Made by a program: the position numbers and the translations under genes. A stretch of 64,000 nt of DNA. Origin: Spirogloea muscicola (Eukaryota; Streptophyta; Zygnematophyceae; Spirogloeales; Spirogloeaceae). The notes beneath the pieces were generated by a model. That model did not search any database and was not told where the DNA came from. It worked only from the letters and a program-made list of their open reading frames with translations. This document shows positions 17,600-61,572 of the stretch, piece after piece; within the stretch, counting starts at the first letter, position 1; each line of letters starts with the position of its first letter. The stretch spans positions 695,573 through 759,572 of the forward strand of contig WELB01000042.1 of NCBI GenBank assembly GCA_009602725.1, given 5' to 3'.

Positions 17600-17970
17600 G
17601 ACCCGCACGAAGAAGTGGCTCTCCCGCAAGCGAGGAGGCGCGCGGGACGCACGATACGGAAAGAAGTGGCTCTCCCAATGGGGGCAAGGGGCTGTGAGAA
17701 GCGAGCCCGAAAAGAATTGACAAGGTTCGAAGGGGCCAAAGTACGAGCTAAGCAGCTACTAAGGGGCCTGAAGAAGTGGCTCTCCCAATGGGGGCAAGGG
17801 CTGTGAGAAGCCAGCCCGAAAAGAATTGACAAGGTTCGAAGGGGCCAAACTACGAGCTAAGCAGCGACTGCGGGGCCTTGAGAGGCTATGGCAGAGAGGC
17901 TATGGCCTGAAGAGGCGGGGCGCACGAAACGGAAAGGGTGGGGCCAATGCAAGCCGATACAATGTTCAGG
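17600..17970 (-). repeat. Tandem pair of ~110-bp repeat units plus LINE terminal segment
   Basis: Two near-identical units, at about 17663-17770 and 17773-17880, each start with aagaagtggctctcccaatg and run through aagaattgacaaggttcgaa to gagctaagcagc. A terminal segment (ggggcgcacgaaacggaaag) follows near 17917-17965. The second unit is almost identical to one at 60209-60320. Confidence 0.7.
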
Positions 17971-18546: not shown

Positions 18547-21500
18547 TTGTTCTTCTCGCCGCTCCTGACGCGCCGCGCTTGCCCGCTCGGCCGCCGTGGC
18601 TGCAGCGCCTCGCCGACCGACGCCATCTCGGAGAAGTTCCGGCGCATCCAGGCGCTTCGCATGCCCGAGCAGATCAAGTGGGAGCTTGCGGAGCTGCGGC
18701 GCTCGCGGCTGGTCCACCCGGAGGGGCCTCGATACCGGCTGTGGAAAAAGTGCGCCAGCCTCTAGACCGTCGCTGCAGTGCTTCAGTCTCTGTCGCTGCC
18801 AGCAGCGATCCAAAACGGGCCGCCAGCAAACGTGCGTGCTCTTACAAGGCGAGCGGCTGGCTGCCAGGTTCATTGCCATCTGGGAGGCCTACGCGGCGAT
18901 CGTGTCGCCGTTCCAATTCGGCTTCGTGGCCCNCCACCCGGTCTTCCTCAGTTACTTCCTGCTGGTTACTCCTGCAATTGAACATTTTTCCGCTCCTGTG
19001 ACCTGCAGATGTGACCTTGCTGTGCTCATGTGGTAGCAAGTGGGACAGCAACTTCTTCTTGACTCACATTGATATGAATTCTTCCTGCCAGATGTCTATC
19101 TACTGCTCTTCCAGCATTGTGAAGTTCTAGTCAGCTTGACTTTCCCATTGTGCTCTCTGCTTTGACGCAGGTATGCAAGCCATGGTCTCATTCCAGACAT
19201 CTTGTCGACGATTCCTTACAGCCTCCTGTGGTACCTGGCTGCCGGCCACCCGCCCCACGGGCGCCTCGGTGACGTGCTAAGGCTTCTAGTATGCCTCCGC
19301 ATATATCGGCTGGGCCACGTCTACGAACTTTTGTCACAGTAAGCAAGCTCTTCCGACTGGCCTTGCATCGTGGCAATTTGTCACTTGATTCTCCATGGAA
19401 GTCACCACCCTTCGGCATGGGTTTGGTATAGGTAGGGTGTAGGGGTCTTGGTCAAGTGTCCAAGTCTGGGTTCCAGGGGTTTAGGAAATTACTGCTGCAG
19501 GCAGCAAGGTACGTCTTTGTTTGCTCCTTTTGCACAGAATAGGTGAGCGATGCAAATATCACCCCCGTACTGAGCCAAGTGTATGTCTCAAGCATGTAAA
19601 TGATCTTGCTGAAGTGATATTAGTCACCCTACTATTGCAGATTGGGCCGGAAGCATCGGTATGGCTATATGATCATCCGCCTGTCCAAGCTCTTCATTGT
19701 ATGTAGAGAGTATTCTCCCGCCTCCAGTCCTTCGTTTGCATCCTCACAGCATTGCAGCCCAGCTAGTCAAACTCAGCTAGCTCCACCATCATGCAGAACT
19801 CTACCTGAACCCCTGAGAGTTTCAATTGTCATTGCCATCCTTATGGCATACCTAAAGCTTACAATAGACAAGTTGCCATACCTGATGAAATAGTATGACT
19901 AAAGTCCTTAATAGGTAGATACTAGTCGTCACATGTCATCCTTGAAAGCGAGGAGAATAAAGTGCCATGCACGCTGAGATGATTATGCCACTCACATTAT
20001 TTTTGCACATCAGAACATTTTGCTTGGTGCACATTATGCTGGTATCATCTACTTCTACATTGCAACTGTGGAAGCAGACCCAGACAATAGTTGGATTGGT
20101 CAGGGCATCGGCACTGACTGGAAGGGGCAAGGCATTGCCAAACAGTACATTGCTAGTAAGATCCTGAAAACCTTGTCCTTTTCCTTTCAATATCTTCTGT
20201 GGGACCAGTCACCAGGCTGATCTCTCTATTGGGACAAACAATCGTTTCTTTCTGGATACTCCTCATAGGGCCTGGTTTTGTCTGCAGTACACCTCTGCAG
20301 TACACCGCAAAGAACTTCTAGCCGTTGGGCCACTACTGACTAAGGTGCATTCAATGACGTCGCAGCCATTTACTGGTCGGTGTTCACAATAACCAGCATA
20401 GGGCCCGCTTACTCAGCCAATACCACCCCAGAGCAAATTTTTATCACGTTTTATGCCTTGTTCGGAATGGCTGTTGTAAGTACCCTCGTTGACCTAGAAG
20501 CCATGTGTTGTTCTTGGCATGGGCTATTGTAGCTACTCTCTGTTGCAAGTTTCCTACTTCATCTTAGGCCTATCATACTGTATATGCTTCAGAGGTGCAA
20601 CCTGAGTCTACATCAGGCCGGCAGTCAGGACAGGCCAAGCACCTAAAGCTGGTGCCTCTGCTGAACCACACCACTCTGCAGCTTGCCTACACCCTTGGCA
20701 CACTTACATTGCTCATCGTCAAGGAGTCCAGCAAAACAATGCAATATGTAAGACAACCCTTGGAATTCAAAAGGATGGTCTCCAGCTTGCAACAGAAGTA
20801 TTGTACGCTAGGATGAAATTGACCCGCTCATTGTTTGAGGCTTAGCAGGTGTACAGCAATCACTTGGGCTACTTCCTGGTGCGGGACAAGTCGGTCCTGT
20901 GCTAGAATTGAAGACGTTTCTGATGTACTGCCATATGCCTCCGCAGCACGAGGAGATGCAGGCCCTCCAGCGATATGCAGCGCGACATGGTCTCCCGCAG
21001 GGCATAAGGGCTCAGCTGCGCTCACACTTGGAGATGCAGCTTCACCAGGAGCTGGACACGTTTCTGGAACAATTTCCACGGCATCTCCAGGTCGCCGTCG
21101 CGCGTCATTTGTACCTGCCTCTTGTCTCTGCCACATACCCATTCCAGAGCTGCTCACTTCAGTTCCTGAATCAAGTGGTAGATACCCGTCCCTTTCCTCT
21201 CTGCCCTTTGCCACTTTGCATCTGTGTTGATGGTGTCAGCAGCTTCAGAGGTCAAGGCTCACTTCTCTTGCCAAGTCAATCAGACAGTGAGTGAACATTT
21301 CCTGTGGTGATGGTCGATGCAGGGAATATGCAGTTGGTTGTGAATCTGCCAGGATTATGATATGCATGAGAGTGTGGCTGTTGCAGGTCAGCGAAATGAA
21401 GCTGGAAACAGTCATGCCCAACACTGTGGTCGTCACAGAGGGCGACGTTGCAACTCACCTGTACATTGTTGTATCTGGTACCCTTGTAAGTGAGAGGGAG

Positions 21501-24197
21501 GACAACTGGGCAGTCTTGAGAGTCTTGCACGTTGATGAGGACTGCAGGAGAAAGAACTCGAGCCATATGTGGCCATTGATTTATTGTCGACTTCGTCAAA
21601 GTTGGTGATGAGATAAGAAGGGCATAATTCTGGAATAGGTCAGAGCATGCCCTCCTTGGGCAGGCACTTCTCAGCAACCATCTTTCGTCTGCTTTGTAAA
21701 CAGGTGCGTGATTTCTGTAGCGGAAGTATTATGATGGTAAGTACTGCCTTTCACGTGCGTGAGGCTAACATGGAGCAGGATGATGAGAAAGCCTTTATTC
21801 CAATGAAGGTCCTGTCAGACTATGTCCGCGGTCTTGATGGCCCGCAGCACTATCCTTTACATTGATTGGTCTCACCAGACAACCAGAGTCTTAGTAGAAG
21901 CCTCGTCTAGTCTGTGCATATGGAGCAGCGTCCATATTCTGAAGCTAAGATTCGAGCTTAAATCTGCATGCTCATTATCACCTTGCAACACAACAATCTA
22001 GATATTATCATTCGTGACCCTGGATCTGGTTTCCACAGGCAGAGCTTGGCCCAGGGTCGGTGTTTGGCAAGATGGCGGTGCTCTGCAATGTACCACAACT
22101 GCTCACTGTACGCACGCTGGGCCTGTGTCAGCTGCTGAAGCTTGACAAGCAGGCCTTCTCCCACATCCTCCGGGCTTACCCGCGCGAAGCGCGCCAGATA
22201 CTTGACAACCTTAAAGAGGCAAGGCCGCAAATCATCTCAAGTGCAGAATTCCTCAGCTGCTGATTAGCAGCTACAAGTGCGTACGTAGATGACAACAAGA
22301 AAGAGTTGGGCAGAATAGGCAGCGACAATGACCTGCGTCTTGCACGAAACAAGGCCTTTGGGCCTGCTATGAGGTGCAACGGAGGACCAAAGGCCTTGTT
22401 GCACAAGAGACACCTGTGGCTCGCTATGTGGTGCAGCAAAGGTTAGGAGGGCTGTTAGGTGTGCCATGGGGATGTAGTACAAGCAACCCCAATTAAGTTG
22501 CAGCATCATCTTGGATGGTCTTACCTCTACCAAGACACTTGCATTACTGCAGTTCCATGGTACAAGTTACTGTTGCCTTCCTTGCACTTCCTTGATTTCC
22601 TGTAAAAGGGGAGTGGAATGAACTGCTGTATTCGTGTGACTCACTCGTTTTGGTCTACCTACCTGTCTCAGCAGAAGGTGGAAGCTGGAGGGAGCTCGCC
22701 GGGCCAGAAGTTGCTCGTCCAAACACGGGCAGAGGTCAGCTCCATGACGTCAGAGCTTGCAAGCCTCATTGAGCAGCACGATGCGGAGATGAGCACAGCG
22801 CTCTGTGCGGCAGCGGCAATGTGAGAGGCCTTCCCAACAGCCTCATGTAGATTATTGGCAGTGTCAATGCAAGAGACATGAGAAGGAGCTGATGACCCAG
22901 TCATAAGCGTCAATGATGTCACAGGGCTGCATTTGTCAGTACTGATGCCCTTCAAGTTGCCATCTGCCGCTTTCCACATGCAGGGGCGATCTTGGGCGCC
23001 TCCAAGCTCTTGTGAAGGGGCCCGCCTCTGCCAGCACTCCTGACTATGCTGGTCGCACTCCACTGGTATGCCCCTTGTAGCGTCGAGACAACACTTGTCA
23101 GTCACACTCCTTACGTTGCATTGGCTGCACGCTGAGGTCGACCACCTTGAAGCTGTCCTGCTGCAGAACTGTTAGTACAACATGTACTCACTGGCTTCTC
23201 AAGAACGTGTGCAGCACTTAGCTGCTCGCCAAGGCTTTGAGGACTGCGTGCATTTCCTGATCGAGGAGGGTGGTGATACCTTAGCTGCTGGTACGAGCGG
23301 CAGCATGCGTGCCTTCCTTCTTAGATGTGTCTGCGTAAGTGTCTGTGTAAGTGCGCATCACTCTGAGCGTCCCGTGCAGTCCTCCATTGTCTCATCTCCG
23401 TGTGCGAATCTATGTTCAGCTTGTGATAAAGCTTTGTCAATGTTGTTTGTCAATGTTGCTCCATGTTGAGCATAATGTGCCCTGTTGGGTGTAAAGAGTG
23501 CACTTGGCAGTATCCAATACAGGGAACCCTTGGCTCTGTAGTACATGTAAGCTGAGATATCACAGTGTCATGTGATGACCCCACTGTCGGTTGGTCCCTT
23601 GTGTTCCTCCCCGCAGACCAGGAAGGTAGCACTCCTCTCCTGGAGGCCGTAAAGGCAGGCCAGCCGGCTGTGATCGAGAAACTTCTGAAAGCAGGCGCCC
23701 AGCTGAGGCTCCGAGACCCTGGGACGTTCTTGTGCGGGGCGGCGGCGCTGGGCGACCTCGCACATCTCCGACGCCTGCTCCAATGTGGCGCAGACTTCAA
23801 AGCAAAGGACTACACAGGGAGGACGGGTCTCCACATCGCCTGTGTCAAGCAGAACCTTGCCGTTGTGCAGGTAATTGTCCCATCACCTTACATCACGTCT
23901 CGTATCAATTCGATTAGCCATGTCCCTGGGTTACAGAGCCTTGCGTCTGCATCAAAATCAGTCTTTTGCCCTTACACTTCAAGAGCAATGTACAGAGCCG
24001 AGCCACTAAGACTGCCCCAAGAAGCGCTATGGTTGACCCTGACATGGACCAACTTGACTCGTTGCCCTCATCAGCTCTTGGTGGAAAGCGGAGCAGACGT
24101 CCACATTGCTGATGATGCTGGCGAGACTCCCATCAGCCTGGCTCGAGCCAGCAGCAACAAGCGCCTCCTTGATATTGTCCAACGACGTAACATGTAG
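18547..24197 (+). CDS. Plant Shaker-like channel with cNBD and ankyrin repeats; atypical pore filter
   Basis: Multi-exon membrane channel of the AKT/SKOR architecture; the 5' end is unresolved. Exon 1 ends RYRLWKK and joins FIAIWEAYAAIVSPFQFGFV (S1). GLIPDILSTIP (S3-S4 linker), VCLRIYRLGHVYELL (S4), NILLGAHYAGIIYFYIA (S5), the pore exon (about 20343-20479) and AYTLGTLTLLIVK (S6) follow. The pore reads AAIYWSVFTITSIGPAYSAN where relatives have YWSxTTxTTVGYGD, so the GYG filter is absent. A C-linker (LQRYAARHGLPQGIR) leads to a cyclic-nucleotide-binding-like domain with GSVFGKMAVLCNVPQ and LLTVRTLGLCQLL, then a coiled segment and ankyrin repeats (DYAGRTPLHLAARQGF, QEGSTPLLEAVKAG, YTGRTGLHIACVKQN, DAGETPISLARASS) to the stop. 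S2 and the start of S3 are not clearly readable at 18940-19160. It is likely a plasma-membrane or endomembrane cation channel; selectivity is uncertain. The first ATG in the recognised exon is at 18661. Confidence 0.82.
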
Positions 24198-32762: not shown

Positions 32763-33571
32763 TCACTGGTGTCCCACTTTGGCGGCACTTGTGGGGCAAT
32801 GCGTAGGGCGCTGGGAGTGAGCAGACGGGTTGCATCTTTGTCGGCAGACACGACTAGTCCCAGGCAAATGCGTTGCAAATTGAGGAACTGGGTCACGTCC
32901 TCAGGTCCTACAGTATGCTGCAGCAGGCCGATCTGATGGCTGGCTCCGCATCAGCGAGCCAGTCGCACACGAGCCATGTGCCATGCAGGCCAGCGGAGGT
33001 GGACGCTCACTTCTTGCCGGCAAAGGACAGGGTGGGTGAGGTTTCTTGTGCTGCAGACACTGAGATCTGAGCCTTCTGCTTTCGTGTCAATTCCTGACAT
33101 TTTTTACTCTCAGTCTACAGTGCATATAAGTCTTTGCACTAAGTCAAAGTCAAGCACTGCGTGCCTGATCCTATTGCACACTCGCCAGAGCTTATTCTGA
33201 GCGAGCGCCTCCAAGAGTGCAAGACGCTGGATTTGGCGACTGTGTGGCGCTTGTTGTCACTTGCTTAAGGGCTTTTGCCTTCCCTTGCCAATAGGGTGCT
33301 GACTTGAAAGTCCGAGTCAAGGTCATCAATCATGTAACCCATATAGGTCATAAACCATCGGAGCCGTAAGGTCGATTCGAGACAGACTGACGACTTCATT
33401 GTAGGCTTCGGCAGTAAAGAAGAGTAGCGCTTCCAAATTGACTGGTGGCTGTGAGAGGCCAGCCCAAAAGAATGGGCTAAACCTTAAACCCTGAAGGCTA
33501 CAGATGAAGGACCTTGCGAGTCGCCAACGACTGCTGCACTGCAGCAGGTGGCGCTCTCCTGGCGCCGAACA
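32763..33571. other. Spacer with a repeat-module scrap
   Basis: Between SKL2 and the flavoprotein gene. A module fragment (gactggtggctgtgagaggc, then cagcccaaaagaatgg) lies at about 33438-33478. The remainder should contain the SKL2 3' UTR and the promoter of the next gene. Confidence 0.35.
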
Positions 33572-36500
33572 ATGGCGGCAGCTGCGGCAGTGCCGACGGC
33601 GGCTCTGGGCTTGGCGGCTGCAAGTGGCTTCACCCATACCGCCACGGCGAGGCCCGTCTCAAAGGAATGCGGAAGTCGTCGGCGAGCCAGGGCGGACGCC
33701 TCCGCAGCCGGCGATGGACCGTCAGCGGAGGCCCAAAGCAGCCGCCGTCAAAAGGTGGCCGTCGTGGGCGCCGGCGTCGGCGGCCTGGCCGTCGCCGGGC
33801 TGCTGGCCAAGGCGGGCCACGCCGTGACGGTCCTGGAGAAGAACGCCCGGCCCGGCGGCCGGCTGCAGTCGGTGCTCGTTGATTTAGATGGTCGTGGCGG
33901 CGCCGGTGGTGCCAATGATGGGCCGCTGGCGGAGACGGCAGCGGAGGCGGCTGACAGCCGGCGGCGGTTCCGCTTCGACACTGGGCCCAGCCTGCTGCTC
34001 ATGCCGAACAAGTGCCGGGAGGCCTTCGCGGACCTTGGTCAGCGCCGCCATTAACCTCCGCTCTGAGCCCACGTACGCCTTATCTCCCTTGTGCAAGGCC
34101 ACGCAGCTTCAATTTGGGCTCGTTTTCGAAAATTGTGCTACACATTCAGGCCGCCTGTTCAGCATTGATGATCGCAAGAAGTATGGCTGACTGCTTTAAG
34201 TCAAGCTATGAATGCTGAACCTTACAGTAGCAAGTCACTGTAAGGTTTAGACCCAAGACACTGGCTCTGAAAGGTGATGCCTGAACCCTGTGAGACTTGG
34301 TTACTGGGGTCATAACGGTCATTTCAGTTGTAGAAACATTATTGCCCAAACTCTTGCACGAAGTGACCTCAGGCCCAATCCCCTCTCACCTCAGTAGTGC
34401 TTGTGCAGTGCCATGCACCTGCGACTTCAGACTCCAGAGTAGACTGCCAAACACCTACATTCGAACAATGTTGATACCAGAGCCTCATCAGACATCCCAG
34501 AAATTGGCATCCTCCTTAAAGCTTGACAGTAGGCACGAGGGGTCCTTGCATATCCGAGCATGTTGCTGGGGGCGAGCCTGCATCTGCAGTTCACGGTTGG
34601 ACTTCCCCCATCCCTGCAACCCGGGCCTTACCCTTGTCACCGAATTCTTAGTCATCTGGATGATCCTAGAAGCCATCGTGGCCTTCCTACACTGAAGCGG
34701 AGTCTTCAATTGTGAAATTTTCATCCTTTAACAGTTGTCCTTGTACCTGCTTTCGCAGGTGAGAATGTGGACGAGCATGTGGAGCTGCGCAGGGTTGAGC
34801 CAGCAGCGTACCGCGTCTTCTTCGCACGAGGGCCGTGGGGGCTGCCACTTGCCGTGGACCTGCTCTACGACGTGCAGCGCATGGCCGAGCAGCTCGAGCG
34901 CATCGAGCCGGGGTGCTCCAGTGCATACCTGCGCTTTCTGGCCAATGCCCGTGAGGCCCTCGTTAAGGTGACCGGAGCAGGGTAAAGCACGCATCACTAG
35001 GGCAGATACCACGGACCACAGAAGACAGATAGGATACAGGCCCTTTCGTTTGCAGAGCTGTCTAAACTTTAGGTGACTCTGACCTTAGTCAGGCTCACTT
35101 CAAGGAGCAAACTGCGCCTAAAACCTAAACCCTTAGTCCTAAATCCTAATCCTAAACCCTAAAAACTAGACCCCGGCCGTCTATTGTAAGTAAATCCAAG
35201 TCCGAGTCCATTCAGCTGCCATTGATTGGCCAGGGTTTGCTTGCCTTGATCCTTCCACTGCAAGTTATCAGCAGGGCACATGGCTTCACCTTCCCCAGCC
35301 CAGGTGCTACTGTTGACTACATAAGTTACGTCTCAATCAGGGCACAGAGAATTTCATTGAGCGCGACTTCCGGAGCTTTTGGGACTATGCCAACTTGCCG
35401 CGCCTGCTGCCCCTGTTGAGCAAGCTGTCCCCATTTGAGCTCCTAGGGCAGCACCATGCCCGCATGGCCACCTATTTCAAGGATCCCCGGCTGCAAGCCC
35501 TCTTCACTTTTCAGGTGGCTTACACATACATGGCATGCTATTTAGTGCAATTGCACTTTCCCTTTATCAACCTGTCGTCATAATGTGCCAAAGTTCCAGC
35601 TATAATTAGATTGTTTTTGATAGCTGCTGGCTTCTTAGCTGTTCATGCTGAGCTGAATGAAGTCCTCTGAGCCCTAGTTTGTGTGTAAAGCTTCTGCTTA
35701 TATGTGTTGGAGGTGTGCAAGATAATAATTGTAAGTGTCTGTTCCATGATGCTTTGTACATGTCAGAGCCAACCTTTATCTGCAATCAGATACGTGGCCA
35801 TAGCAACATCTGTGCCCTTCTTGATCGCCACAATGAGCTTCATTCTAGCTCTGAAGTGTAGCTGGGCATCTCTGCAGGACTTATATGTTGGCCTAACGCC
35901 TTACAGCGCACCAGGTGTTTTCAGCCTCCTTGCCGCAACAGAAATCACGGACGGCGTGTGGTACCCTGTCGGCGGCTTCCAAAAGATTCAAGATGCCTTG
36001 TTCAGCACCGCTGTCAAGAATGGTGTGGATGTTTGCATGTCAGCGGAGGTGCAGGCAATTAATGAATACAACAGTAAGGTCTGATGATCCGCAAACAAGT
36101 AGAGGAATTCGTTGAAACCTCTGCCTTTCACGCTGACCACTGGGAGTTGCAGTAATGGCTGTTACCACAACCTCGCCGATTGACTGCTTGTCCAAGCAGA
36201 AAGTATGTGTAAGTAAATCAGGATAGCATGTAATAGATCTATGAGACAACTCAGGTTCTTGACCATGAGCTTGTGTTACACAGGTATCTGGAGTGACATT
36301 ACAGGACGGGTCCACAATTGCTGCAGATGTTGTTGTGGCAAATGCTGACCTACCTTATGCGTACAGTCAGCTGGTCCCAGGTGAAGTCAAATGACCAGCT
36401 TTCCATAATCCTGGGAGCACCTGATGTATGATAGTCTCCACGACGAATGGAGCATATGTTACCAAGTGTCCGCTTGATGCCAAACTTTGGGCTGTGCAAA

Positions 36501-37884
36501 GGCTATGACTTGTAGTCTTGCTTTGCAAACAACAATCTGATATAGATAGGAGCGTATGCTCGGCAGGACTGCAGGCTCAGAGGCAGGCGGCCCGACTGAA
36601 CAAGATGGAGTACAGGTGCAGCTCTAGCTTGACACCGTCTGTGGACCACGACCTTGCATCTGCTTTGCTTTCATCGCCAGTTGACGTATTTTGCATTTTC
36701 TCAAAGAGTCAGTGTTGCTATCTGCAATTACTTGCTGCTTCGCAAGGTTCTTCACGTTAAGTGTCGAAGGGACTTCCATAAAGACATATTGGTCAAGCTG
36801 ACACGTAATTGACACCTGAGTGACAATTGTACAGCCCTGACAGCAATGCATGACACACCTTGCCTCCTGAGTGTTGGAGCAGCGCGGGCATCATCTCGTT
36901 CAACTGGGCGCTCGACACATACCTGCGAGCTCTCGCCCACCACAACGTGTTTCTGTCGGACGACGTCAAAAAGAGCTGGGCTCGCGCCACTGGGCCCCAG
37001 AGCCTGGTGGCACGGCCCAACTTCTACGTCCACGCGCCGCAGAGGACAGACAGCTCTGCTGCACCTGCAGGTATATTCAAAAGCCCCAAATTGCCCCTGC
37101 ACTATTCCAGGCTGAGAATGTGGCTACAGATTGTTAGAGGTGGTCTTGTCTTTTGTCAGGATGTGATGCAATCACAGTGTTGCTGCCGGTCGCCAACCTC
37201 GGCCAGATGGAAGCTGGCACTGCCGTTGACGCGGATGCTCAGTGGGAAGCTCTTGTGTCTGCTGCGAGGTCCAAGGTGCTCCAAAGGTCAGCTATTCTTG
37301 CTCTCAATGAGCTATGTGAGGGCGCTGTCCTCGTAGATTGAGTAGGGCTTGCCGACATTGTTGCAGCAGGGTAACAATATAGATTCCAGGACAATCTCTG
37401 TAGCTTGCCTGCAAGGATATAGGGCTTTGCAATCACCATACTGCATTAGCAGCAAAGCCAGCAAAGCCCTGTTGTGGGACATTGCGACCATTCAGCTCGA
37501 CTCTTGCAGGACAATGCATGAGGGCACATGTTGCGATATCACTGGGCTGTCCTTTTCACCCCCCAGCAACTGGCATCCCTGTGCAGGTTACAAGAGGAAG
37601 GAGTAGGCAATGTTGAGGAACACATTGTGTCTGAGTTTGTGATAGCGCCACCACAGTGGCGGGATGCGTACAACCTGCATCACGGTGCGGCCTTCGGCCT
37701 ATCTCATGGCCTCTCCCAGCTAGCATACTTCCGCCCAGGCGTCGCGGACCACGCAGTACGTGGCTTGTTCTTTGTAGGAGCGTCCACACGGCCCGGCAAT
37801 GGCGTCCCACTAGTCCTCATGGGCGCCCGAGTGACGGCCGCAAGAGTACTTGACCATTTGTCTCGGATGCTAGTGCAGTCCTAA
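33572..37884 (+). CDS. CrtI-family carotenoid desaturase/isomerase-like FAD oxidoreductase
   Basis: Exons: 33572-34037, 34759-34967, 35341-35513, 35878-36078, 36284-36380, a short one near 36565-36615, 36893-about 37068, about 37161-37288 and 37588-37884. The N-terminus (Ala/Ser/Arg-rich, about 60 residues) looks like a plastid transit peptide. It is followed by KVAVVGAGVGGLAVAGLLAK and HAVTVLEKNARPGGR, the Rossmann FAD-binding start, then FDTGPSLLLMP. Middle blocks include VELRRVEPAAYRVFF, FWDYANLPRLLPLLSKLSP, GVWYPVGGFQKIQDAL and SFNWALDTYLRAL. The C-terminal FAD motif is GLFFVGASTRPGNGVPLVLM, as in bacterial-type CrtI, CrtD and CRTISO proteins. The reaction (phytoene, zeta-carotene or prolycopene as substrate) cannot be decided from motifs. 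It sits downstream of another likely plastid protein, SKL2, but with no sign of joint control. Confidence 0.85.
35117..35165. repeat. Degenerate telomere-like (CCCTAAA) run in an intron
   Basis: Inside an intron of the flavoprotein gene: successive aaacctaaaccctt, cctaaatcctaatcc and taaaccctaaaaac. The units are imperfect versions of the plant-type telomere repeat. Confidence 0.5.
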
Positions 37885-40855: not shown

Positions 40856-41404
40856 NNNNNNNNNNNNNNNNNNNNNNNNNNNNNNNNNNNNNNNNNNNNN
40901 NNNNNNNNNNNNNNNNNNNNNNNNNNNNNNNNNNNNNNNNNNNNNNNNNNNNNNNNNNNNNNNNNNNNNNNNNNNNNNNNNNNNNNNNNNNNNNNNNNNN
41001 NNNNNNNNNNNNNNNNNNNNNNNNNNNNNNNNNNNNNNNNNNNNNNNNNNNNNNNNNNNNNNNNNNNNNNNNNNNNNNNNNNNNNNNNNNNNNNNNNNNN
41101 NNNNNNNNNNNNNNNNNNNNNNNNNNNNNNNNNNNNNNNNNNNNNNNNNNNNNNNNNNNNNNNNNNNNNNNNNNNNNNNNNNNNNNNNNNNNNNNNNNNN
41201 NNNNNNNNNNNNNNNNNNNNNNNNNNNNNNNNNNNNNNNNNNNNNNNNNNNNNNNNNNNNNNNNNNNNNNNNNNNNNNNNNNNNNNNNNNNNNNNNNNNN
41301 NNNNNNNNNNNNNNNNNNNNNNNNNNNNNNNNNNNNNNNNNNNNNNNNNNNNNNNNNNNNNNNNNNNNNNNNNNNNNNNNNNNNNNNNNNNNNNNNNNNN
41401 NNNN
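40856..41404. other. Assembly gap (549 N)
   Basis: Flanked on both sides by CGG-rich sequence. It hides the first exons of the amidotransferase-like gene and of SEC15, and presumably a shared promoter. Confidence 0.95.
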
Positions 41405-44400
41405 CGGCGGTGGCGGCGGTGGTGGCCAACGGCGAGGACGCGGGCCCGCTGGTGCGCGCGGCGTTCGAGGCCGGGCGGCCGGAGGCGCTGGTCGGGGCGC
41501 TGAGGGCGCTGGCGCGCGGCAAGGAGGGCGAGATCGAGGACCTGTGCAAGCGGCACTACGAGGAGTTCATCGCCGCCGTCGACGAGCTGCGCTACGTCAT
41601 CGTCGACGCCGACGAGCTCAAGTCCGGCCTCGCCATCCAGAACTCCGAGCTCCAGGTACGTGGTTTGCACGTCGAAACAGATTAGCGCTCTTTATGAAAA
41701 GATCTGTCCATCAATACTATAGCAGAGCACTTGCTTGGCCTCCGTGAGCTGCCGTTCCAACAGCTGCCAGCCTCGCTCCAGGGGACGCATCACCTTGAGA
41801 TCGGTTCTCGGGGCTCAGTCCATAACGGGATTGCATTAGGGTTTTGTAGCTCAAATCAGTAAGGTTAGCTGTCAGGCATCCCACGCAAGTTGGGCCATGT
41901 GTGACTCCACTTTGCCTCCCACTGAGCATTTGTAGAAGGGTCTCAGGCACGCTGGTCTGAGAGCCGCATTCGTTGGCACCGTGGCGACTGGGACTGCGCT
42001 TGCAGGGCGTCGGACGTGGCCTGCTGACGCGCTTGGAGGAGCTCATGGAGGCTCAGGCCATCAAGCGCAACATCGTGGAAGCAGTCGGCTCGTTGCACAA
42101 GTGCAAGGCGGTCGTCGAACTCTGCCAGAGAGTCAACGACTACCTGGCCACTGACAGCCACTACTCGGTTCTGCGTACGCTGGACATCATTGAGCGCGAC
42201 CACATCAAGCAGGCCTGTCCTGCTCCACTAAGAGCTGCTGCACCCAGCTAAGGTCGAGGCCCAGCAAGTCAGCTTTCAAGGGCTGTGCCGACTTTCTGAA
42301 GCGACAAGGAGGAGTTGCAGCAGCAGCTCTTAGTGGAGCAGTCAACCTCGTGAAGCAGACAGTAGATGAGTTGTTGCTACTACTGACTGACTGCAAAGCA
42401 ACTCTTGACCCGCGCAGGTGCCATCACGGGCACTCCAAGCATACCTGGAGCGCCAGATACCAATGTGCCGTGGCTACGTTGAGCGCAAGGTCAATGAGGA
42501 GTTCACTGATTGGCTTGTCAACATCCGGGGGCTCGAGCGAGAGATTGGCCGCCTGTCTATTGGGCAGGCTTCCTCGCGCCGCCAACGAGAGGAGGAGATT
42601 CGGTTCAAGTAGGTTGCCAGTCGATCGCAAATGAGTTCTGATGTCCTAGTGCACAGACTGGAAACAGGTCTTGGCTGTCTCTGGAGAATGCCTGCCCCTG
42701 GCATATGCAGATGATAGGTCGTATCATCTGCTACACAATCACACAGCTTGCATGTGTTGTCCTGCTACTTTGTGTGTAGGCGTCAAGCAGAGGAGCAGCA
42801 GAGAGCAAACTCCAAAGATCCTGTGTACTTGCTCGAGGTAGACGACCAGGAGGAGGAGAATGTTACCTTTGCTTTCGACCTCACGCCAGTGCACCGAGCC
42901 TTCTACATTAACACGTGCCTGGGCCTCCAGGACCAATTTCGGGATTTCTACTTCAAGAACCGCATGCTGCAGGTCACTTCAGCCGTGGCTCTGAAATCAA
43001 AACTTAGTAATCTGCAGGCATCTGAAACTGCTGCTCCTAATAATCCCAAGCCTGCCAAGAGCGCAGTGACAGCTATGTCCTGATTCAAACTCTGCTTTGT
43101 CTGATTTTCGTCACGTCTGTGCTGTTTGTGTGTGTGCAGCTAAACTCAGACCTGCAATTCGGGGCCGGGCAGAGCTTTCTGGAGGCATTCCAGACCTACT
43201 TCTCCCAAGCTGCAGGCTTCTTCATTGTGGAGGACCGAGTGAGGAGGACTAGCGGCGGCCTCATAACGACTTTCCAAGTAGGTGCTGAGGGATAGCTGGG
43301 ACATCCAGAGCATCACTGTGGTTGTCATTTATTCATGCCATGTGACAGTGACAACTTTTACTTCTGCTTTAAGCAAGCAGGCGGATTTGGTGATATGGAG
43401 CTGGATTGCAGGTTGACAGTCTCTGGGAGGGCGCCATCAGCAAGATGAAGATGGTGATTGAGGAGCAGTTCACAAGGATGGGCTCCGCCTCTCACCTCTT
43501 GCTTGTTAAGGACTACGTCAGCCTGCTCTGCTCAACACTCCGGCGCTTTGGCTACCAGGTCAGCCCTTGGTGGCTTTGACACGATGAGCCCTGCATACCT
43601 GTTGGACTCCCAAGAGCCATGATCTGACAGGACTTGCATAAAATCACTGTGTAAGCCATTGCATTGACGTCTGCCCTAACAGCACATTCTGATCCTCAAT
43701 GAAGGATGGGACAAAGGTAGCCTTTAAGTGGATACTGTAAACAAAATCCTGGTACTATGTCTTGGTTAAGAGATTATCGTGCCTTGCAGGTCGCGCCGCT
43801 TCTTGAGGTCCTAGAATTGATGAGAGACAAGTATCACGATTTGCTGCTGAGTGACTGTCGCCGGCAAATCAACGACGTTCTTGCCAATGACAAGTACGAG
43901 AAGATGCTCATGAAGAAGGAGTATGAGTACTCGATGAACGTCCTTGCTTTTCACCTTCAGGTATGCAGGAGACTGTAGTATAGCACAGCAAGCATGAGGA
44001 AAAAATTTTGCTCAAATATTGACATGGCATTGTATCTACCGTGCTCTGCAATGAGTTGTAAGCTAAGCCCAAGCAGTTGCATGACTGTCAGCATTACACC
44101 TGGTATAGTGTTTGTCTAGCATATGCTTTGTCGGAGCACTGTCTTGGCCAGTAAGCTGATTGAGTGCGCCATTGAGGCTGGTATTGCAGAGCACCGACAT
44201 CATGCCAGCCTTCCCCTTCATTGCCCCCTTCTCAGCCACGGTCCCAGAGTGCTGCCGTATCGTGCGGAGCTTCATCATGGACTCAGTCAGCTTCCTCTCC
44301 TACAGCGGGCAGATGGACTACTACGAAGCCGTGCGCAAGTATCTTGACCGCCTGCTGACTGGCGTGCTGAATGAGGCGCTCCTCCGCATGATCCACACAC

Positions 44401-46227
44401 CCACCTTGGCCGTCTCGCATGCCATGCAGGTGATCCTGTTACATCCGATGGGCGTTTGCTTCGCTGCAATCACATTTCGTCAAAGTCTCATGCAGAAAGA
44501 CATGACATCAGCCACGACTTGACATGTCTCCGGTGCCGGGCACCCTTGCTTAGAGCACCTGTTGAAGTCACTCACTTGGTGCTTGATTCTAATTTTGTCG
44601 TGCAGATAGCTGCGAACATGACAGTCTTAGAGCGGGCATGTGGATTCTTTGCGGAGCACGCCGCCAAGCTGTGCGGCATCCCAGTGCGGCTCGTCGACGG
44701 CACGCATGGAAGCCTTGCCTCGCGAGCTGTTCTGCGGCAGTCACAGGTACAAGCCAGTGGGTAAAGTCAGCCCTTCAAATAAGAGACTTATGATGCTTGA
44801 AATGGCTTCCAGTATTTGATCTCAAGCTAACGATCATGCTTCGGATATTTCTAACACTTATTGTATTCTACCGAATGCGCGTCAATGAGCACTTGGATTG
44901 CGTGCGCACCTTGTTCTGAGAAGGCTGTTGAGCTCATGCTCCACTCACTTGGTGCAGGCGGCAGCACACGAGCAGATGCTGCGGCTGGTCAAGTCCAAGA
45001 TTGACGAGTTCATGACGCTGAGCCATAGCATTGTATGGATGCCCGACGAGCTTCCGCAGGTTGGCTGCCCAATCTAGAGTTGCCCTTGCACAGTCAGCAG
45101 CTCTGATATTGTTGCACTATGCAGTAGTACAATTGATGCACAAAGTTGCGCAATGAATAGTACAACTGATGCACAATAACATGTACTCTGGGTCCTTTGT
45201 GACTTGGGAGCAAAGCATTAGCAAACTTTGTCACAGTAGAGCAGCCAATGCAGTATCAGACTTGTATCATGAAAAACAGCCAAGGGGTTGTCCTGCACTC
45301 AAGATTTGAGCTATACGACGCTAATCAGATGCTGCTACAATGCTAAACAGGGCGGCAATGAGTACCTGAATGACCTCTTCATCTACCTGGACACGATGAT
45401 GGAGACTGCACAGGAGATACTGCCCATTGAGGCCTTTGGAAAAGTGCGCTTCTTACTCGTAGACTCATATGAGACTCCAGCGCTGTGTCCTACGCATGTG
45501 ATGTTGACAAGGTATTCTCAACACGCAGCCCTTGCAAGTCTGACACCATCGTGGGCTGTTGCTATGCCAGGTCAGCGCAGGGATCATGCGGCACATTAGC
45601 GACTGCATCATCGGCGCGCTGTGTAGTGATGAGGTCAAGCGTTTCAATGTCTACGCGCTCGAGGGCATCTCTGCAGACCTACGGGTGCTTGAGAGCTTCT
45701 CGGATGAGCAGGTGCCGTGGCTTGATGGCATAGCCAGGGTGGATCAGCTCCTTTGTTTCTCCTTGTTCCTGCACTTGCTTTTTTCCCTCACCCCTCACGT
45801 CACTGGGCGTCCTCTTTCGCAGTATCGGGAGAGCGGGCTTCAAAAGTTGGCCGGCGCTATGCCACTTCGGTTGTGTCTTGCTGAAGCACGGCAGATGGTC
45901 AACCTCCTCCTCAGTAACACGGTAGGTTTCCCGCCAGCTAACTATTGGCTGCAAAGAAGTGCATTCATTCAGCCCCACACGTAATCTGGTAAACGCCACT
46001 GACTTAATTTTATTGTTGGAATCATGCTGTAGCCGGAGCTGTACCTCAATGCAGCGGTGAGAGAGAAGAACTACTTCTCGCTGCGGCCGGACAGAGTTCT
46101 GATTATTGCGGAGAAGTGCAAGGACGCATCAGACGGGAAGTTGTTTGGGCGGCCAGGCCCACAGCAGGCGAATAAGCGCAAGTCACTTGACACACTTCTT
46201 AAGAAGCTGCGTGAAAGCGGGATTTAG
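41405..46227 (+). CDS. SEC15: Exocyst complex subunit SEC15 (5' partial)
   Basis: Fourteen exons are visible: gap-41655, 42006-42212, 42418-42608, 42780-42972, 43140-43277, 43412-43558, 43790-43960, 44190-44429, 44606-44746, 44958-45059, 45351-45443, 45571-45711, 45823-45921 and 46033-46227. They encode an all-helical protein of the SEC15/EXOC6 family: [20 protein letters not shown] and [11 protein letters not shown] near the start, then [114 protein letters not shown] and [20 protein letters not shown], ending [13 protein letters not shown]15 links Rab GTPases on secretory vesicles to the tethering complex at the plasma membrane. The second intron uses a GC donor after IKQ. The N-terminal tens of residues lie in the gap. 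No domain is missing in the visible part. Confidence 0.93.
42220..42341. repeat. 22-bp perfect inverted repeat inside a SEC15 intron
   Basis: Arms 42220-42241 (ctgctccactaagagctgct...) and 42320-42341 are exact complements with a 78-base loop. The first arm begins 8 bases after the GC donor of this intron, so a stem in the pre-mRNA could affect splicing, or it may be a relic of a small inverted-repeat element. Confidence 0.7.
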
Positions 46228-47969: not shown

Positions 47970-50900
47970 ATGACCGCTGGCGGCGGCGGCCGCCGCCGCC
48001 AGCCGGCCTCATCGCTGCTGGTGGCGGCGCTGCTGGCCGCGCTCGCGGGCGCCGCCACCTCGCAGCAGCAAACGCCTCTGCTGGGCCAGGGCGTGTCCCC
48101 CGTCGGCGCCGGCCTCGCCACGTATGGCTGGCCGCTCCCTCTCAGGGCCGTCTGTCCTTGCACAAGTCAAAGAGCCATCTACTGGGAACGCTGCCTGCGA
48201 CGTGTTCGCAGTGTTCCACGTTGCGAGATCCCCTGGAACCGGATGGCATATGAGATCTTCAAGCTGCTGCAGTGCCTCATGTGCTGCGCCTGGAAAGTAA
48301 CGCGGTCAACGTGCTGCTCTATCCGTTACTGCAGAAATGCGACGCCCGTGTACATGTCAGTTGTCCTTGAGAAGCTGTTCAAAGTAGATGGTGAGCTCAT
48401 CCTGCTTCTCTGAACCCTGCTAGCGTGTTATGTCCGAGTTGCATAATGTGCTACTACTTGACGGCACCTTTTGCACCACATTTGCACCACCAGCAAGATT
48501 CTTGCATCTGATCAAACAATCAGGTTGAGGTGAGCACGAAAAGTGCAGTGGACGCCCTAAGATTACAATTACAAAGTAAAGTTGCAAATTTGCATGCCTG
48601 CATTCCTGGAAAGCATTCAGGGCCTACAGGCCTCATGCTGCCAGCACAATGTTTGGTCTTTGATTTACAGCAAACAACATCACAGGCCTCGTTGTATATT
48701 CTGCAGAGATAAATTATTCCTTTGAGGTTGTTATGACCGTGGTGACGACTTGGAGGGATCCTAGAGGTGGAAGCACAAGGGATCCACTGCCTTTACCAGA
48801 TGCTGAACTCCAATTCTTGGCAAGCAATTGTGCTCCACATACTTCTGATCGGGAATTATGGCAGGACTTACAAGGGCTCACTTTGGGCTTACTGCTCTGT
48901 TGTGCAGCTGACAAGCTCATCAATGGCCTCGTACTGAGTTCCACCGTCAAACAGAATATAGCCGTGTCCAAGCAGTCACAATGCAGCGCCTACATTGCTG
49001 AGAGTAATTATAGTTATACAGATGGTGTATACTTCAACTCCACCAATACGACCTGCAACGAGGCCACCGAGAAAGTCAACAGGTTCACTGCAATTACTGC
49101 ACAGCTTCCAATTCAGCAGGCATCTGCCATTCTCTTGTCTGCTGTTTGCCTGATCCAAGGGCAAGAGAAGTGACAATCATGGATGTGTTGTTGATGACCT
49201 TTGTAAATTTGGCCTGGCAGCGTCCCATGCAATCGGTACTGCTTTCCGTGGGATCAGACTGTCTGTTGCGATGCTATATGGGTACCTGGGTTCAGATTTG
49301 GGAATGTTCTTGCCTATTCCCAAGATCGATATGTCGAAGGTAGGTTGTGCTGAACAATTTAGAAGAACCTTAGGACTTGGCACTGAGCTTTTTGAGAGCG
49401 TCTCTCAATTAGGTGGAGCTATGGTGACAGACGTAAACTTCTGGATCACGTAGCTCCTTGCTTGCTGCAGACATACTGAATGCCGCGGCAACGCCCAATG
49501 CTGGCATACGTCAGACTCAGGTGCAGGGTAAGTGAGACTTCTATTCTGCATAGGTAGGCAGAACGCTTTTGGGACATTTGCATGAGATACAGAGGTGTTA
49601 GTCAAGCTGACACCAAGCTGGCAGCAATCAGCATATCAGATAGGCTATGCATTTGCATTCGTACAGCAGCAAAGAGCTCAATCATTCCTTTGAATGCAGG
49701 TCTCTTTTCAACACCACTGTCCTTTCAACGTTTTCCTTTTGATAAACAGGTGAACATTCACAAGCAAATCAAGCGCAAGTGAGGACACTTCTTCAACTTG
49801 CAGCATAGATGTCTTTGACATATAAATGCCTTCACGATGTTCTGTCTGAAGGCATGCAAATTATGCATAGTTGACAATTGTTGTCAGCTTGACATTTATT
49901 GGCACATACCTACATGATGTTTTGTCTGGAGGCATTCAGCCTCCAGACAAGTACTCAAGATAGCAATCTCTGCAATAGACAAGAGGTGAAAGCTAGCCAT
50001 TCTTTGCATGGGCAGTACTAAATGGAAGAGAGTAATCGTCCATTTGTCCATTTTCTCCTCTCCATCTGCATGAGATGGGAGCAGAAGCTTATCATGCAAA
50101 TTCAGACAACAGACTCAGACTATTATATTGTGCCAAGTATCACTGCCAAGGATCAAGCTTTGAGTGTGGCTGGGCGACGCCTCAAAGGGGCAGGCAAGAG
50201 TTACCCAAGCGATGACCTTGCAGGCTGGAAGATATTGCAGATATATCTCAAGTGCGACCCGCAACTTGATTGCACCTCGTCGGAATTGTGGCAGAAAGCT
50301 GATCCAGGTGAGCAGACTGCTTGGCCCTTCCACGTCTCTGATTTTGTCTGAGATCAAGTATGTAGCAAGAGGAGTATGAACCTCTCAGGCCGGCAAATTT
50401 GATAGGTGCAGTTCCTCTTGCTGGCAAAAGAGTTGGGCTACCCTTCATGGCACAGACTTCCATTTGCACTCATGCGCTGATCTTCTTTCTGTTGCTCATG
50501 CAGATGATCCTTTGGTTGATATCTTGAAGGCCCAAAGTGAGGTCTGTAGCAAGCAACTGTCAACCAAGCCCACATCTTGCGAGATTGTCATCGTAGTGGA
50601 GCGCCTTAGCTACTTCTACATCTGGAATGTAAGTTCGGATTTTTCATGCAGGCTCATGTCGTCACTACAGTAAATTGTATAAACATTACCTAGGGTGTTT
50701 GTCTGGCCTTTACAGACATGCAGAAGATTCACCACAGGGATGGTAGACCACAAGTGTTTTGTTGTTTGTTGTCTTTGACCCTCATTGTGGCACTTGTGAA
50801 CGTGCGTAAGGTTCCTAGTTTGTGACCACTGGTGGAGTATGTTTTAGTATGACCCTCCCTTGCTGCTTCTCTCCTTGCAGATCATATTCCCAGTTATGAT

Positions 50901-52265
50901 CACAGTTGCCCTGGCATTTGTGGCATTCTTTGCTTCCCCAGTGAAGCTCGAGCTGCGGCTGAACACTACAGTCACTCTTTTTCTTGCCCTTACTGCCACC
51001 CAGTTTGTCGTTGATGGACAGGTCGGTCATCCAGTAAACTGGGCTCCTTCTTCTACACTAATTGAAGATGGCTGTTGTTGAAGGTGGCTTGGGCTGACCA
51101 ATGGCCTCGCAGCACTCCTGCACCTACTCCTCGGCAGTTTTATCATCATTCCATGCTTGCTTGGTGTAGAAGACAGGTCTATCACACTTTCCATCAGGGC
51201 TCAGTAAACCTGAAGTAGGACGATGTAAGTGGCATGACTGCTGGTAGCATTACATATGCTACCAGCAGTCATGACATACCTGACAATCAGGATGACACTT
51301 TGCTGGCAGGTGCCGAAGACATCTTACTTGACAGCTTTTCACAAGATGGTGTTACTATCATATGGAGTAATTGTGCTCATTGTGTGCGAGTGCACCTTTG
51401 TACACTACATAACTACCCTGGTAAACTCATATGCATCCAATACATCCTACGTGGTGGGGCACTTCGGCTGTGATACTATCTATCTGCCAAGCCACGAATT
51501 TGTTCTTGCCTGCTCTGTAAGGTCATATGAGTCTGCCAGCTGAGTTCTCAGCATATGTTGTTGTGGACAGCGACATTTGTTGTAGTAGAGGAACTTCTGT
51601 GAGCCTGAGTTATGCTCTGTCTTTCCTTTCTTTTGTCTACTTGCAAGAGAACCAAATCCTGCTCAGAAGTTAGCTAGGTGCTGGAATTGTCTTCAGGATG
51701 TCAAAAGGACGAGGCTTGGGAAACAGGTGCTGAAGAAGCTTGGCATGATGGACAATGCTGCTACAAGCAGTAGCATTCAAGGTGGATCTTCTAGGCAGGC
51801 CAGCATGCCAATCGTTGACGAGGATCAAGAGTTGGAAGGCGGTTCTATTAGCAAACCCAAGGTAAGCCTTGCAGGATAAATGTGAAACAAGGCTTCCGCT
51901 ATAGTTATTTGTGGCCCTTGGTCTTTGTCCTCAGCAGAGGCTAGCCCTCAAGAACATATGTGATCAATGTGAACTTGAGGTAGCAGTGTGCCTGACATTG
52001 CCAGCTATCCAAATAGGGTGATGGAGGAGGGCCTCCCGCAGCAAAAGGCACCAAGTTGAGGAGATCAAGAAGCTTGAGGAGGACATTCTCTAGCGTGGGG
52101 CCGGCCATCAGCTCGACATGGAGAACCATCCGGCGGCATCAAACGTCTTTGGCTGCAAGTTCAACTCAGGCATTCCGATTAGCGAGCCTCATAGACACTT
52201 GTTTCCTTGTACTCCTACCACTGCTCTACTTCATGGGTGCTCTACTAATATTTGCCTGCTCCTGA
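47970..52265 (+). CDS. Pentameric ligand-gated ion channel (Cys-loop superfamily, Cys-less loop)
   Basis: Start 47970 gives a signal peptide: an Arg-rich start, then SLLVAALLAALAGAATS. Recognised exons: 48335-48390 (NATPVYMSVVLEKLFKVD), 48707 onward (INYSFEVVMTVVTTWRDPR), 49471-49527, 49700-49749 (GLFSTPLSFQRFPFDKQ), 50085-50307 (KLIMQIQTTDSD; SDDLAGWKI), 50504-50628 (IVIVVERLSYFYIWN), 50881-51021 (IIFPVMITVALAFVAFFASP, TM1; LRLNTTVTLFLALTATQFVV, TM2), 51310-51518 (VPKTSYLTAFHKMVLLSYGV, TM3), 51697-51861 and 52017-52265 (basic, Ser-rich M3-M4 loop; LIDTCFLVLLPLLYFMGALL, TM4). The beta-strand WRDPR, the FPFDKQ loop, the SYFYIWN entry to TM1, VPKTSYLT before TM3 and TM4 next to the C-terminus are all in family order. 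The positions of the two loop cysteines are Thr and Leu, as in prokaryotic members. TM2 has Asn, Thr and Leu at about 2', 6' and 9'. Middle ligand-domain exons (48860-49470) are unresolved. The ligand is unknown. Confidence 0.85.
51233..51273. repeat. Perfect 18-bp hairpin in a channel intron
   Basis: Arms 51233-51250 (catgactgctggtagcat) and 51256-51273 are exact complements around a 5-base loop, 36 bases before the acceptor of the TM3 exon. Confidence 0.75.
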
Positions 52266-59779: not shown

Positions 59780-60440
59780 GATAGTGAGTAGAAGAACTGG
59801 CTCTCCCAAATGGGCAAGGGCTGTGAAAAGCCAGCCCGAATGTGAGTGGGCACAGGCCCACTGACCCCCTTTCATATTGATGGAAAGAATAAGGTGGTGT
59901 ACAGAATGGTTGTACAGAGTGGTGGTGGCCTGGGGGGTGAGGCCAGCCTGAAGTGCCGCTTCGGATCAACCAGCTACGAAACACTCACCCCTCACCCCTC
60001 CTGAGCCCTGATCAGGGCCCCGGCCCCAAGTGTAACCCGGCCCAGTGCTTCCTGCTAAGCAACCGCAGGTCGGGGAAACTGGGCTCCTGGGAGCGGGTCC
60101 CCTGGCCCTGTTGATACTCCAGCTATTTATACACACTCCAACCACCTGGCCAGGGCCAGGGACGGCTTCGAAAGAAAGTGGGTCTCCTAGGGGGGGTAGG
60201 GCTGTGAAAGAGAAGTGGCTCTCCCAATGGGGGCAAGGGCTGTGAGAAGCCAGCCCGAAAAGAATTGACAAGGTTCAAAGGGGCCAAACTACGAGCTAAG
60301 CAGCGACTGCGGGGCCTGTGAAAAGCCAGCCCAGAAAGTATGAACAAGGTCAAAAAGGGTCAAAAGGGCCAAATTACACAGCTAAGCAAGAAACTACAGC
60401 AAATGGGAGCTCAGTAACCCCGAGTCAGCAGCCGCAAGTC
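59780..60440 (-). mobile_element. LINE-tail and module copies, one near-identical to 17.8 kb
   Basis: Module near 59790-59840 (ctggctctcccaaatgggca). The reverse of an ORF2 end lies at about 60050-60110 (gctaagcaaccgcaggtcgg, gcgggtcccctggcc), close to that at 12430-12480. The 60209-60320 unit (gagaagtggctctcccaatg through gagctaagcagcgactgcgg) differs by only a base or two from 17773-17880. A further ORF2-end reverse lies near 60408-60440. Confidence 0.6.
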
Positions 60441-60789: not shown

Positions 60790-60955
60790 TAACAAGGGGA
60801 AAGAGAAGCTCTTCCAAGTAAGGCAATGGCTGTGAGAGGCCAGCTCAAGCGAATGTATAAGGCCAAAAGCGCACGCAAATACTCCCCTTGATTACTGCGA
60901 GCGGATGCTCAGTAACCACTAGTCAACAAATGCAGGTCAAAGGAACCGGAGGGCC
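60790..60955 (-). repeat. Repeat-module copy with LINE-tail scrap
   Basis: Contains gaagctcttccaagtaaggc, then aatggctgtgagaggccagc, then gctcagtaaccactagtcaa near 60907. Confidence 0.45.
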
Positions 60956-61089
60956 GGCAAAGCGTCGCCATTACGCCTGCGAGACTACGCCGGGCGCCCG
61001 CCCCATGCCCACGCCCACTCTCGTCTACGCCCACCTCGCCCAGCTCAACTTCAAGCCCATTTCTCCATCGTCAAGCACCTGCCGTCGCA

Positions 61090-61572
61090 ATGCAGGCGCA
61101 GAGGATCACGCCCTTCCTGTGGTTCGACGGCGCCGCCGAGGAGGCGGCGCAGTTCTACGCCGGCGTGTTCGCGGGCGGCCGCGTACTGGAGGTGTCGCGC
61201 TACGGCGCGGGCTCTCGATACCCAGAGGGCACCGCCCTCACCGTCAGCTTCGAGCTGGAGGGCCTGCGCTTCGCGGCGCTCAACGGCGGGCCCGAGTACC
61301 ACTTCACTGAGGCCATCTCGCTGGCCGTCAGCTGCGAGACGCAGGAGGAGGTCGACGGGCTGTGGGCCAAGCTCACGGCCGACGGTGGCAAGCCCGGGCG
61401 CTGCGCCTGGCTCAAGGACAAGTACGGCGTGTCGTGGCAGATCGTGCCGGTGCAGCTGAAGCAGCTGCTGGGCGACCCAGACCCGGCCAAGGCGCAGCGC
61501 GTGATGCAGGCCATGATGACAATGTCCAAGATCGACATCGCCGGCTTGCAGGCGGCGCACCGCGGCGACTGA
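61090..61572 (+). CDS. VOC superfamily PhnB-like protein (3-demethylubiquinone methyltransferase-like fold)
   Basis: Single open frame of 160 codons, no intron, unlike every other gene here. It opens with ITPFLWFDGAAEEAAQFYAG, then TALTVSFELEGLRFAALNGG, EAISLAVSCETQEEVDGLW and CAWLKDKYGVSWQIVP. These are the landmarks of the PhnB-like VOC family (PF06983), common in bacteria: start ITPxLWFxxxAEEA, LNGGPxxxFxxAISLxV, a CxWLxDxxGxSWQIVP block, then an MxxMxKxDIAxL end. The length matches bacterial members. Despite an old family name it is not known to be a methyltransferase; the activity is unknown. It probably acts in the cytosol, as no targeting peptide is seen. Gene context gives no clue. 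A bacterial origin by transfer is plausible, but the codon bias is as GC-rich as other exons. Confidence 0.9.
   Translation: MQAQRITPFLWFDGAAEEAAQFYAGVFAGGRVLEVSRYGAGSRYPEGTALTVSFELEGLRFAALNGGPEYHFTEAISLAVSCETQEEVDGLWAKLTADGGKPGRCAWLKDKYGVSWQIVPVQLKQLLGDPDPAKAQRVMQAMMTMSKIDIAGLQAAHRGD

Follow-up and report, generated by a model that had tools for sequence, protein, structure and literature searches.

The locus considered here, at positions 47970-52265 on the plus strand of a 64-kb stretch of DNA (the window), raises the question of whether a pentameric ligand-gated ion channel (pLGIC) is encoded in a genome of the plant lineage, and whether such a gene would be unexpected there. The initial annotation assigned the gene to this family, and the assignment is borne out by the sequence through a profile match to PF02932, matches to the bacterial channels ELIC and GLIC, an automatic spliced alignment and a profile of bacterial relatives. 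In our reading the locus encodes, with good confidence, a Cys-less pLGIC subunit (a "Pro-loop receptor"), and the eukaryote that carries it is most likely a green alga.

Gene model

The gene consists of 11 exons coding for 690 residues, with the start at 47970 and the stop codon TGA at 52263-52265. All ten introns are of the GT-AG type, measure 131-335 nt and have matching phases, by which a single frame of 690 codons is obtained; the GC content is 0.52 in the exons and 0.42-0.49 in the introns. Exon 1 (47970-48390) carries the start, a hydrophobic signal-like stretch, an N-terminal extension and the first strand of the ligand domain (TPVYMSVVLEKLFKVD). The signal-like stretch (residues 13-31) is preceded by an Arg-rich start and reaches a hydropathy of 1.79, which makes it, by hydropathy, a candidate signal peptide; the N-terminal part of this exon was modelled without homology and an additional intron may lie within the extension. 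Exon 2 (48671-49082) holds loop D (W-R-D-P-R) and most of a cysteine-rich insertion of about 100 residues, exon 3 (49221-49339) the end of this insertion and loop A (IWVPGFRFGN), and exon 4 (49471-49527) the strand linking loop A with the Pro loop (FPFDKQ), which itself lies in exon 5 (49700-49749), the cysteine positions being T and L. The later strands of the ligand domain and the start of the loop C region are found in exon 6 (50085-50307), and exon 7 (50504-50628) leads from the loop C region to the pre-M1 arginine and the start of M1. M1 and the pore-lining M2 are encoded by exon 8 (50881-51021), the M2-M3 loop (VPKTSYL) and M3 by exon 9 (51310-51420), the first part of the cytoplasmic M3-M4 loop by exon 10 (51697-51861), and the remainder of this Ser/Arg-rich loop, M4 and the stop codon by exon 11 (52017-52265). 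All exons are on the plus strand.

The landmarks of the product follow the order of the family: WRDPR (168), FPFDKQ (348), M1 to M3, VPKTSYL (517) and M4 (about 663-690). GT-AG exons with these motifs and M1 to M4 in family order had been described in the initial annotation, and the in-phase model of 11 exons agrees with that description. The start and stop given there were retained as well; the exons given as 48860-49470 were not, and were corrected to 48671-49082, 49221-49339 and 49471-49527. The frame of exon 3 differs from that of a nearby long open frame and restores the loop-A motif.

Family membership

Compared with Pfam, the spliced product aligns with all of PF02932 (profile positions 1-233 of 233) at 48.3 bits, above the cut-off of 28.1 (2e-12). 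With PF02931 no match to the whole protein was obtained at E 0.1, and a piece of the protein reached 14 bits, below the cut-off of 26 (E 0.034, positions 79-145 of 216), because the cysteine-rich insertion of about 100 residues splits the ligand domain. The comparison of the spliced protein with both profiles, which had been proposed in the initial annotation, thus turned out positive for the transmembrane domain and not above the cut-off for the ligand domain. Among solved structures (PDB) the best matches are bacterial ELIC (4.6e-11) and GLIC; 126 distinct PDB sequences match the core region at E <= 0.001, and the names of the best 60 of these 126 are those under which ELIC and GLIC are entered. 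Several PDB matches labelled "GABA receptor subunit beta-1" are read as ELIC from their shared coordinates and lengths. When ten unspliced single frames of the locus were compared with Pfam, none matched any pLGIC family (two weak and unrelated Pfam matches were returned, with E 0.016 and 0.17), so the family call depends on the joined exons.

Bacterial relatives were collected in two ways. Scanning with a small alignment gave 25 pattern matches, two of which were real (in records of Aphanocapsa and Dickeya), and further relatives were obtained through PF02931, which matched 13 of the 292 genomes from the phylum of Aphanocapsa and 7 of the 398 from that of Dickeya, both starting genomes being counted. 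A profile of 24 ORFs (23 bacterial loci) matched the product with 89.7 bits in a single-sequence search; its pieces, taken in order, gave -3.2 bits for loop D, 27.4 for loop A to the Pro loop, 64.0 for M1-M3 and -0.7 for M4, the loop D and M4 pieces thus lying below zero when scored alone. After removal of two duplicates, 21 of the 23 bacterial loci make up the alignment; L022 among them is incomplete, and no fewer than two pairs look nearly identical in M1-M2. All 21 share the Pro-loop proline P349 of FPFDKQ, 20 the pre-M1 arginine R461, and 19 each the prolines P473 of M1 and P518 of the M2-M3 loop. In viral contigs 27 pattern matches were met with and none proved a true relative, and on plasmids no relative of the 220-aa core was found.

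Neither of the two positions flanking the 13-residue Cys-loop is occupied by cysteine: they are T341 and L355, which places the protein outside the Cys-loop receptors in the narrow sense. Of the 21 bacterial sequences, 12 have Ser or Thr at the first of these positions and 17 have Leu at the second. With threonine and leucine at these places the protein is therefore a Cys-less member of the family, and the absence of the loop cysteines, likened in the initial annotation to the prokaryotic members, is confirmed. The same is true of the Ser/Arg-rich M3-M4 loop, for which 17 Ser and 12 Arg were counted in 109 residues; the same columns of the bacterial sequences span 0-18 residues in what is a rough profile alignment.

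Enlarged ligand domain and integrity of the gene

From the loop-D tryptophan W168 to the loop-A tryptophan W298 there are 130 residues, compared with 19-34 in 16 of the 21 bacterial sequences by a count between W motifs, in which four of the 21 gave no value and one (L002; 106, with the tryptophan outside W-x-D) was set aside. The spacing between loops D and A taken from the profile alignment, where the loop D of the query had been placed in the insertion, was discarded and the motif count used instead. Nine cysteines are present in the 125 residues following DPR, and the insertion has three N-x-S/T motifs, at 253, 263 and 266. Exon 2 stays open over 137 codons, which in a single given frame and place would happen by chance with a probability of about 0.002, so that it is unlikely to conceal a long intron, though it may contain a short one that keeps the frame. 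The domain is also longer from the Pro loop to the pre-M1 arginine, 107 residues versus 65-76 in the 21 bacterial sequences. As a tentative suggestion, to which we give a rather low probability, the insertion, with its nine cysteines and three N-glycosylation motifs, would form an outer module held together by disulphides, by which the ligand site is reshaped or capped; the protein would then represent an architecturally distinct green-lineage subfamily which senses an extracellular cue.

In Pfam no recognised homology was found for the insertion or the N-terminus, and assembly gaps occur elsewhere in the window, as might be expected if the locus were a decayed or non-expressed pLGIC pseudogene in which the splice sites are usable by accident. 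This explanation is improbable, considering that 690 codons spread over 11 exons are free of frameshifts and stops, that the ten GT-AG introns are in phase and that the conserved family residues are intact. An intact gene of a Cys-less pLGIC subunit is the preferred reading.

Eukaryotic origin and the neighbourhood of the gene

Bacterial contamination, or a very recent transfer from bacteria, would accord with the bacterial identity of the closest solved-structure matches, yet it is very unlikely in view of the ten introns, the identity of only 22-25% in the best segment to the two scanned bacterial loci, the M3-M4 loop of 109 residues set against 0-18 in bacteria (rough alignment) and the eukaryotic Sec15 gene which flanks the locus. 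The earlier statement that the gene is eukaryotic and not a bacterial contaminant is upheld by these introns together with neighbours such as this exocyst subunit.

Exons of Sec15 extend over about 40.7-46.0 kb (plus strand), with PF04091 at 44160-44519 and 45544-45981 (69.4 and 40.7 bits); the frames upstream of the PF04091 exons resemble, by eye, the N-terminal part of Sec15, and an assembly gap is situated at 40856-41404. This neighbour indicates a eukaryote and not specifically a plant.

The remainder of the window contains several other genes. At 20839-24194 (plus strand) exons with a cyclic-nucleotide-binding domain and ankyrin repeats are found. The ankyrin exon matched plant GORK (2.2e-23) and SKOR (5.5e-22), designed ankyrin proteins scoring higher and animal ankyrin proteins about equally; the cyclic-nucleotide-binding exon had three PDB matches at E <= 1 (best 0.021), with no plant channel among them. 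The pairing of both domains is that of plant Shaker potassium channels, and the exons possibly belong to a plant-type Shaker potassium channel like GORK or SKOR, in which case the window might contain two ion channel genes. A frame at 33488-34051 (plus strand) encodes an NAD/FAD-binding oxidoreductase (PF13450), and together with later frames, over 33488-37881 (plus strand), it resembles by eye a carotenoid isomerase or desaturase. On the minus strand an open frame of 661 residues (5337-7319) has DUF7650 (PF24662), a plant family, near its start. An open frame of 218 residues at 60916-61569 (plus strand) bears a 3-demethylubiquinone methyltransferase-like (VOC-type) domain (PF06983, 144 bits). 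Judged by such gene content, a green-lineage host is likely for the window, although the indications are thin; that it would be a chlorophyte is suggested by the published occurrence of such channel genes.

A repeat of about 108 bp, 94-99% identical between copies, occurs as two tandem copies at 17661-17878 and as one copy at 60211-60318, and weaker repeat pairs (70-85%) were noted among 12-14 kb, 17 kb, 54 kb and 60 kb. Scans of the window for tRNA genes and for Rfam families (gathering threshold) found none. The poly(A)-type motifs that follow five of the gene ends carried no signal for or against a chlorophyte.

Automatic spliced alignment

Since the splice sites had been chosen by hand with the family already known, an automatic spliced alignment was added as a control, with ELIC fragments as queries and GT-AG introns permitted anywhere. 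The transmembrane fragment of ELIC scored 78.2 at 50613-51408, an alignment whose outer ends lie in the interior of exon 7 and of exon 9; no other place on either strand of the 64-kb window scored above 41. For 100 dinucleotide shuffles of the 8-kb locus the mean was 34.8 (SD 3.5, maximum 45), so that the observed value exceeds this mean by about 12 SD, and 60 shuffled queries gave at most 51. With the ligand-domain fragment a score of 52.0 was reached at 49698-49749, in exon 5 alone, while other places reached at most 37 and both the shuffles and the shuffled queries at most 41. By this alignment no second pLGIC copy was found in the 64-kb window. That the similarity of the joined exons arose by chance from the manual choice of splice sites, a suspicion to which the ten silent unspliced frames lend some weight, is scarcely credible when an automatic alignment selects the same stretch from exon 7 to exon 9 at such a distance from the shuffled sequences.

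Pore and proposed mechanism

In M2 the residues are Glu at -2', Leu at -1', Arg at 0', Thr at 6' and Leu at 9'. GLIC has Glu at -2' too, and the pore is without the Pro/Ala anion signature. Passage of cations rather than anions is more likely because the aligned -2' residue is Glu as in GLIC and this signature is missing; Glu at -2' is nonetheless a weak basis for ion selectivity, being present in only 5 of the 21 bacterial sequences and accompanied here by Leu at -1'.

For a Cys-less pLGIC subunit of this kind the following course of events may be proposed. Five subunits would assemble within the membrane, and the ligand domain would be set in motion when a small ligand binds at the subunit interface or when, as in GLIC, protons are taken up there. 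The movement would be relayed by the Pro loop and the M2-M3 loop, upon which M2 would open, and the Ser/Arg-rich M3-M4 loop might take phosphorylation or anchoring.

Comparison with known systems

Jaiteh et al. (2016, PMC4795631) report pLGICs from Chlorophyta, "such as Chlamydomonas and Chlorella", describe the protist members as mostly Cys-less and record none in multicellular plants. In PMC11085791, too, chlorophytes are listed as having Cys-less pLGICs, and land plants are said to be without the family. These statements are consistent with the premise of the initial annotation that land plants are without the family; the surprise which it implied at a pLGIC in the plant lineage does not hold, for green algae are already known carriers. 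With Cys-less pLGICs of green algae already published, the present gene is a good new member of the family and no surprise.

In a literature search that was far from exhaustive, no report of a pLGIC gene from a streptophyte or charophyte was found, nor any title on green-algal pLGICs beyond the papers cited above. If the host were a streptophyte alga, the loss of pLGICs in plants would have to be dated later than supposed; otherwise the known range of the family is unchanged. In either case the gene model, being complete and probably from a green alga, offers a concrete candidate for expression and a way to ask to which cue such a receptor responds in a cell that has no synapses.

The animal Cys-loop receptors (nicotinic, GABA-A, glycine) share with the product the PF02932 transmembrane domain and have, as here, a long cytoplasmic M3-M4 loop; unlike them, the present protein is without the cysteines of the Cys-loop (T341, L355). 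ELIC and GLIC, the best sequence matches among solved structures, possess loop A, the Pro loop and M1-M3 in identical order, whereas the present gene has introns and the cysteine-rich insertion of about 100 residues between loops D and A, and its protein differs from the bacterial pLGICs by the longer distance from the Pro loop to the pre-M1 arginine (107 versus 65-76) and by the M3-M4 loop of 109 residues. The Cys-less Pro-loop receptors of protists, including Chlorophyta, as characterised in PMC4795631, resemble it in being eukaryotic, in lacking the cysteines and in placing a polar residue where the first cysteine would stand and a hydrophobic one where the second would; the likeness is drawn from their published description, and Chlorophyta lie inside the range reported for these receptors.
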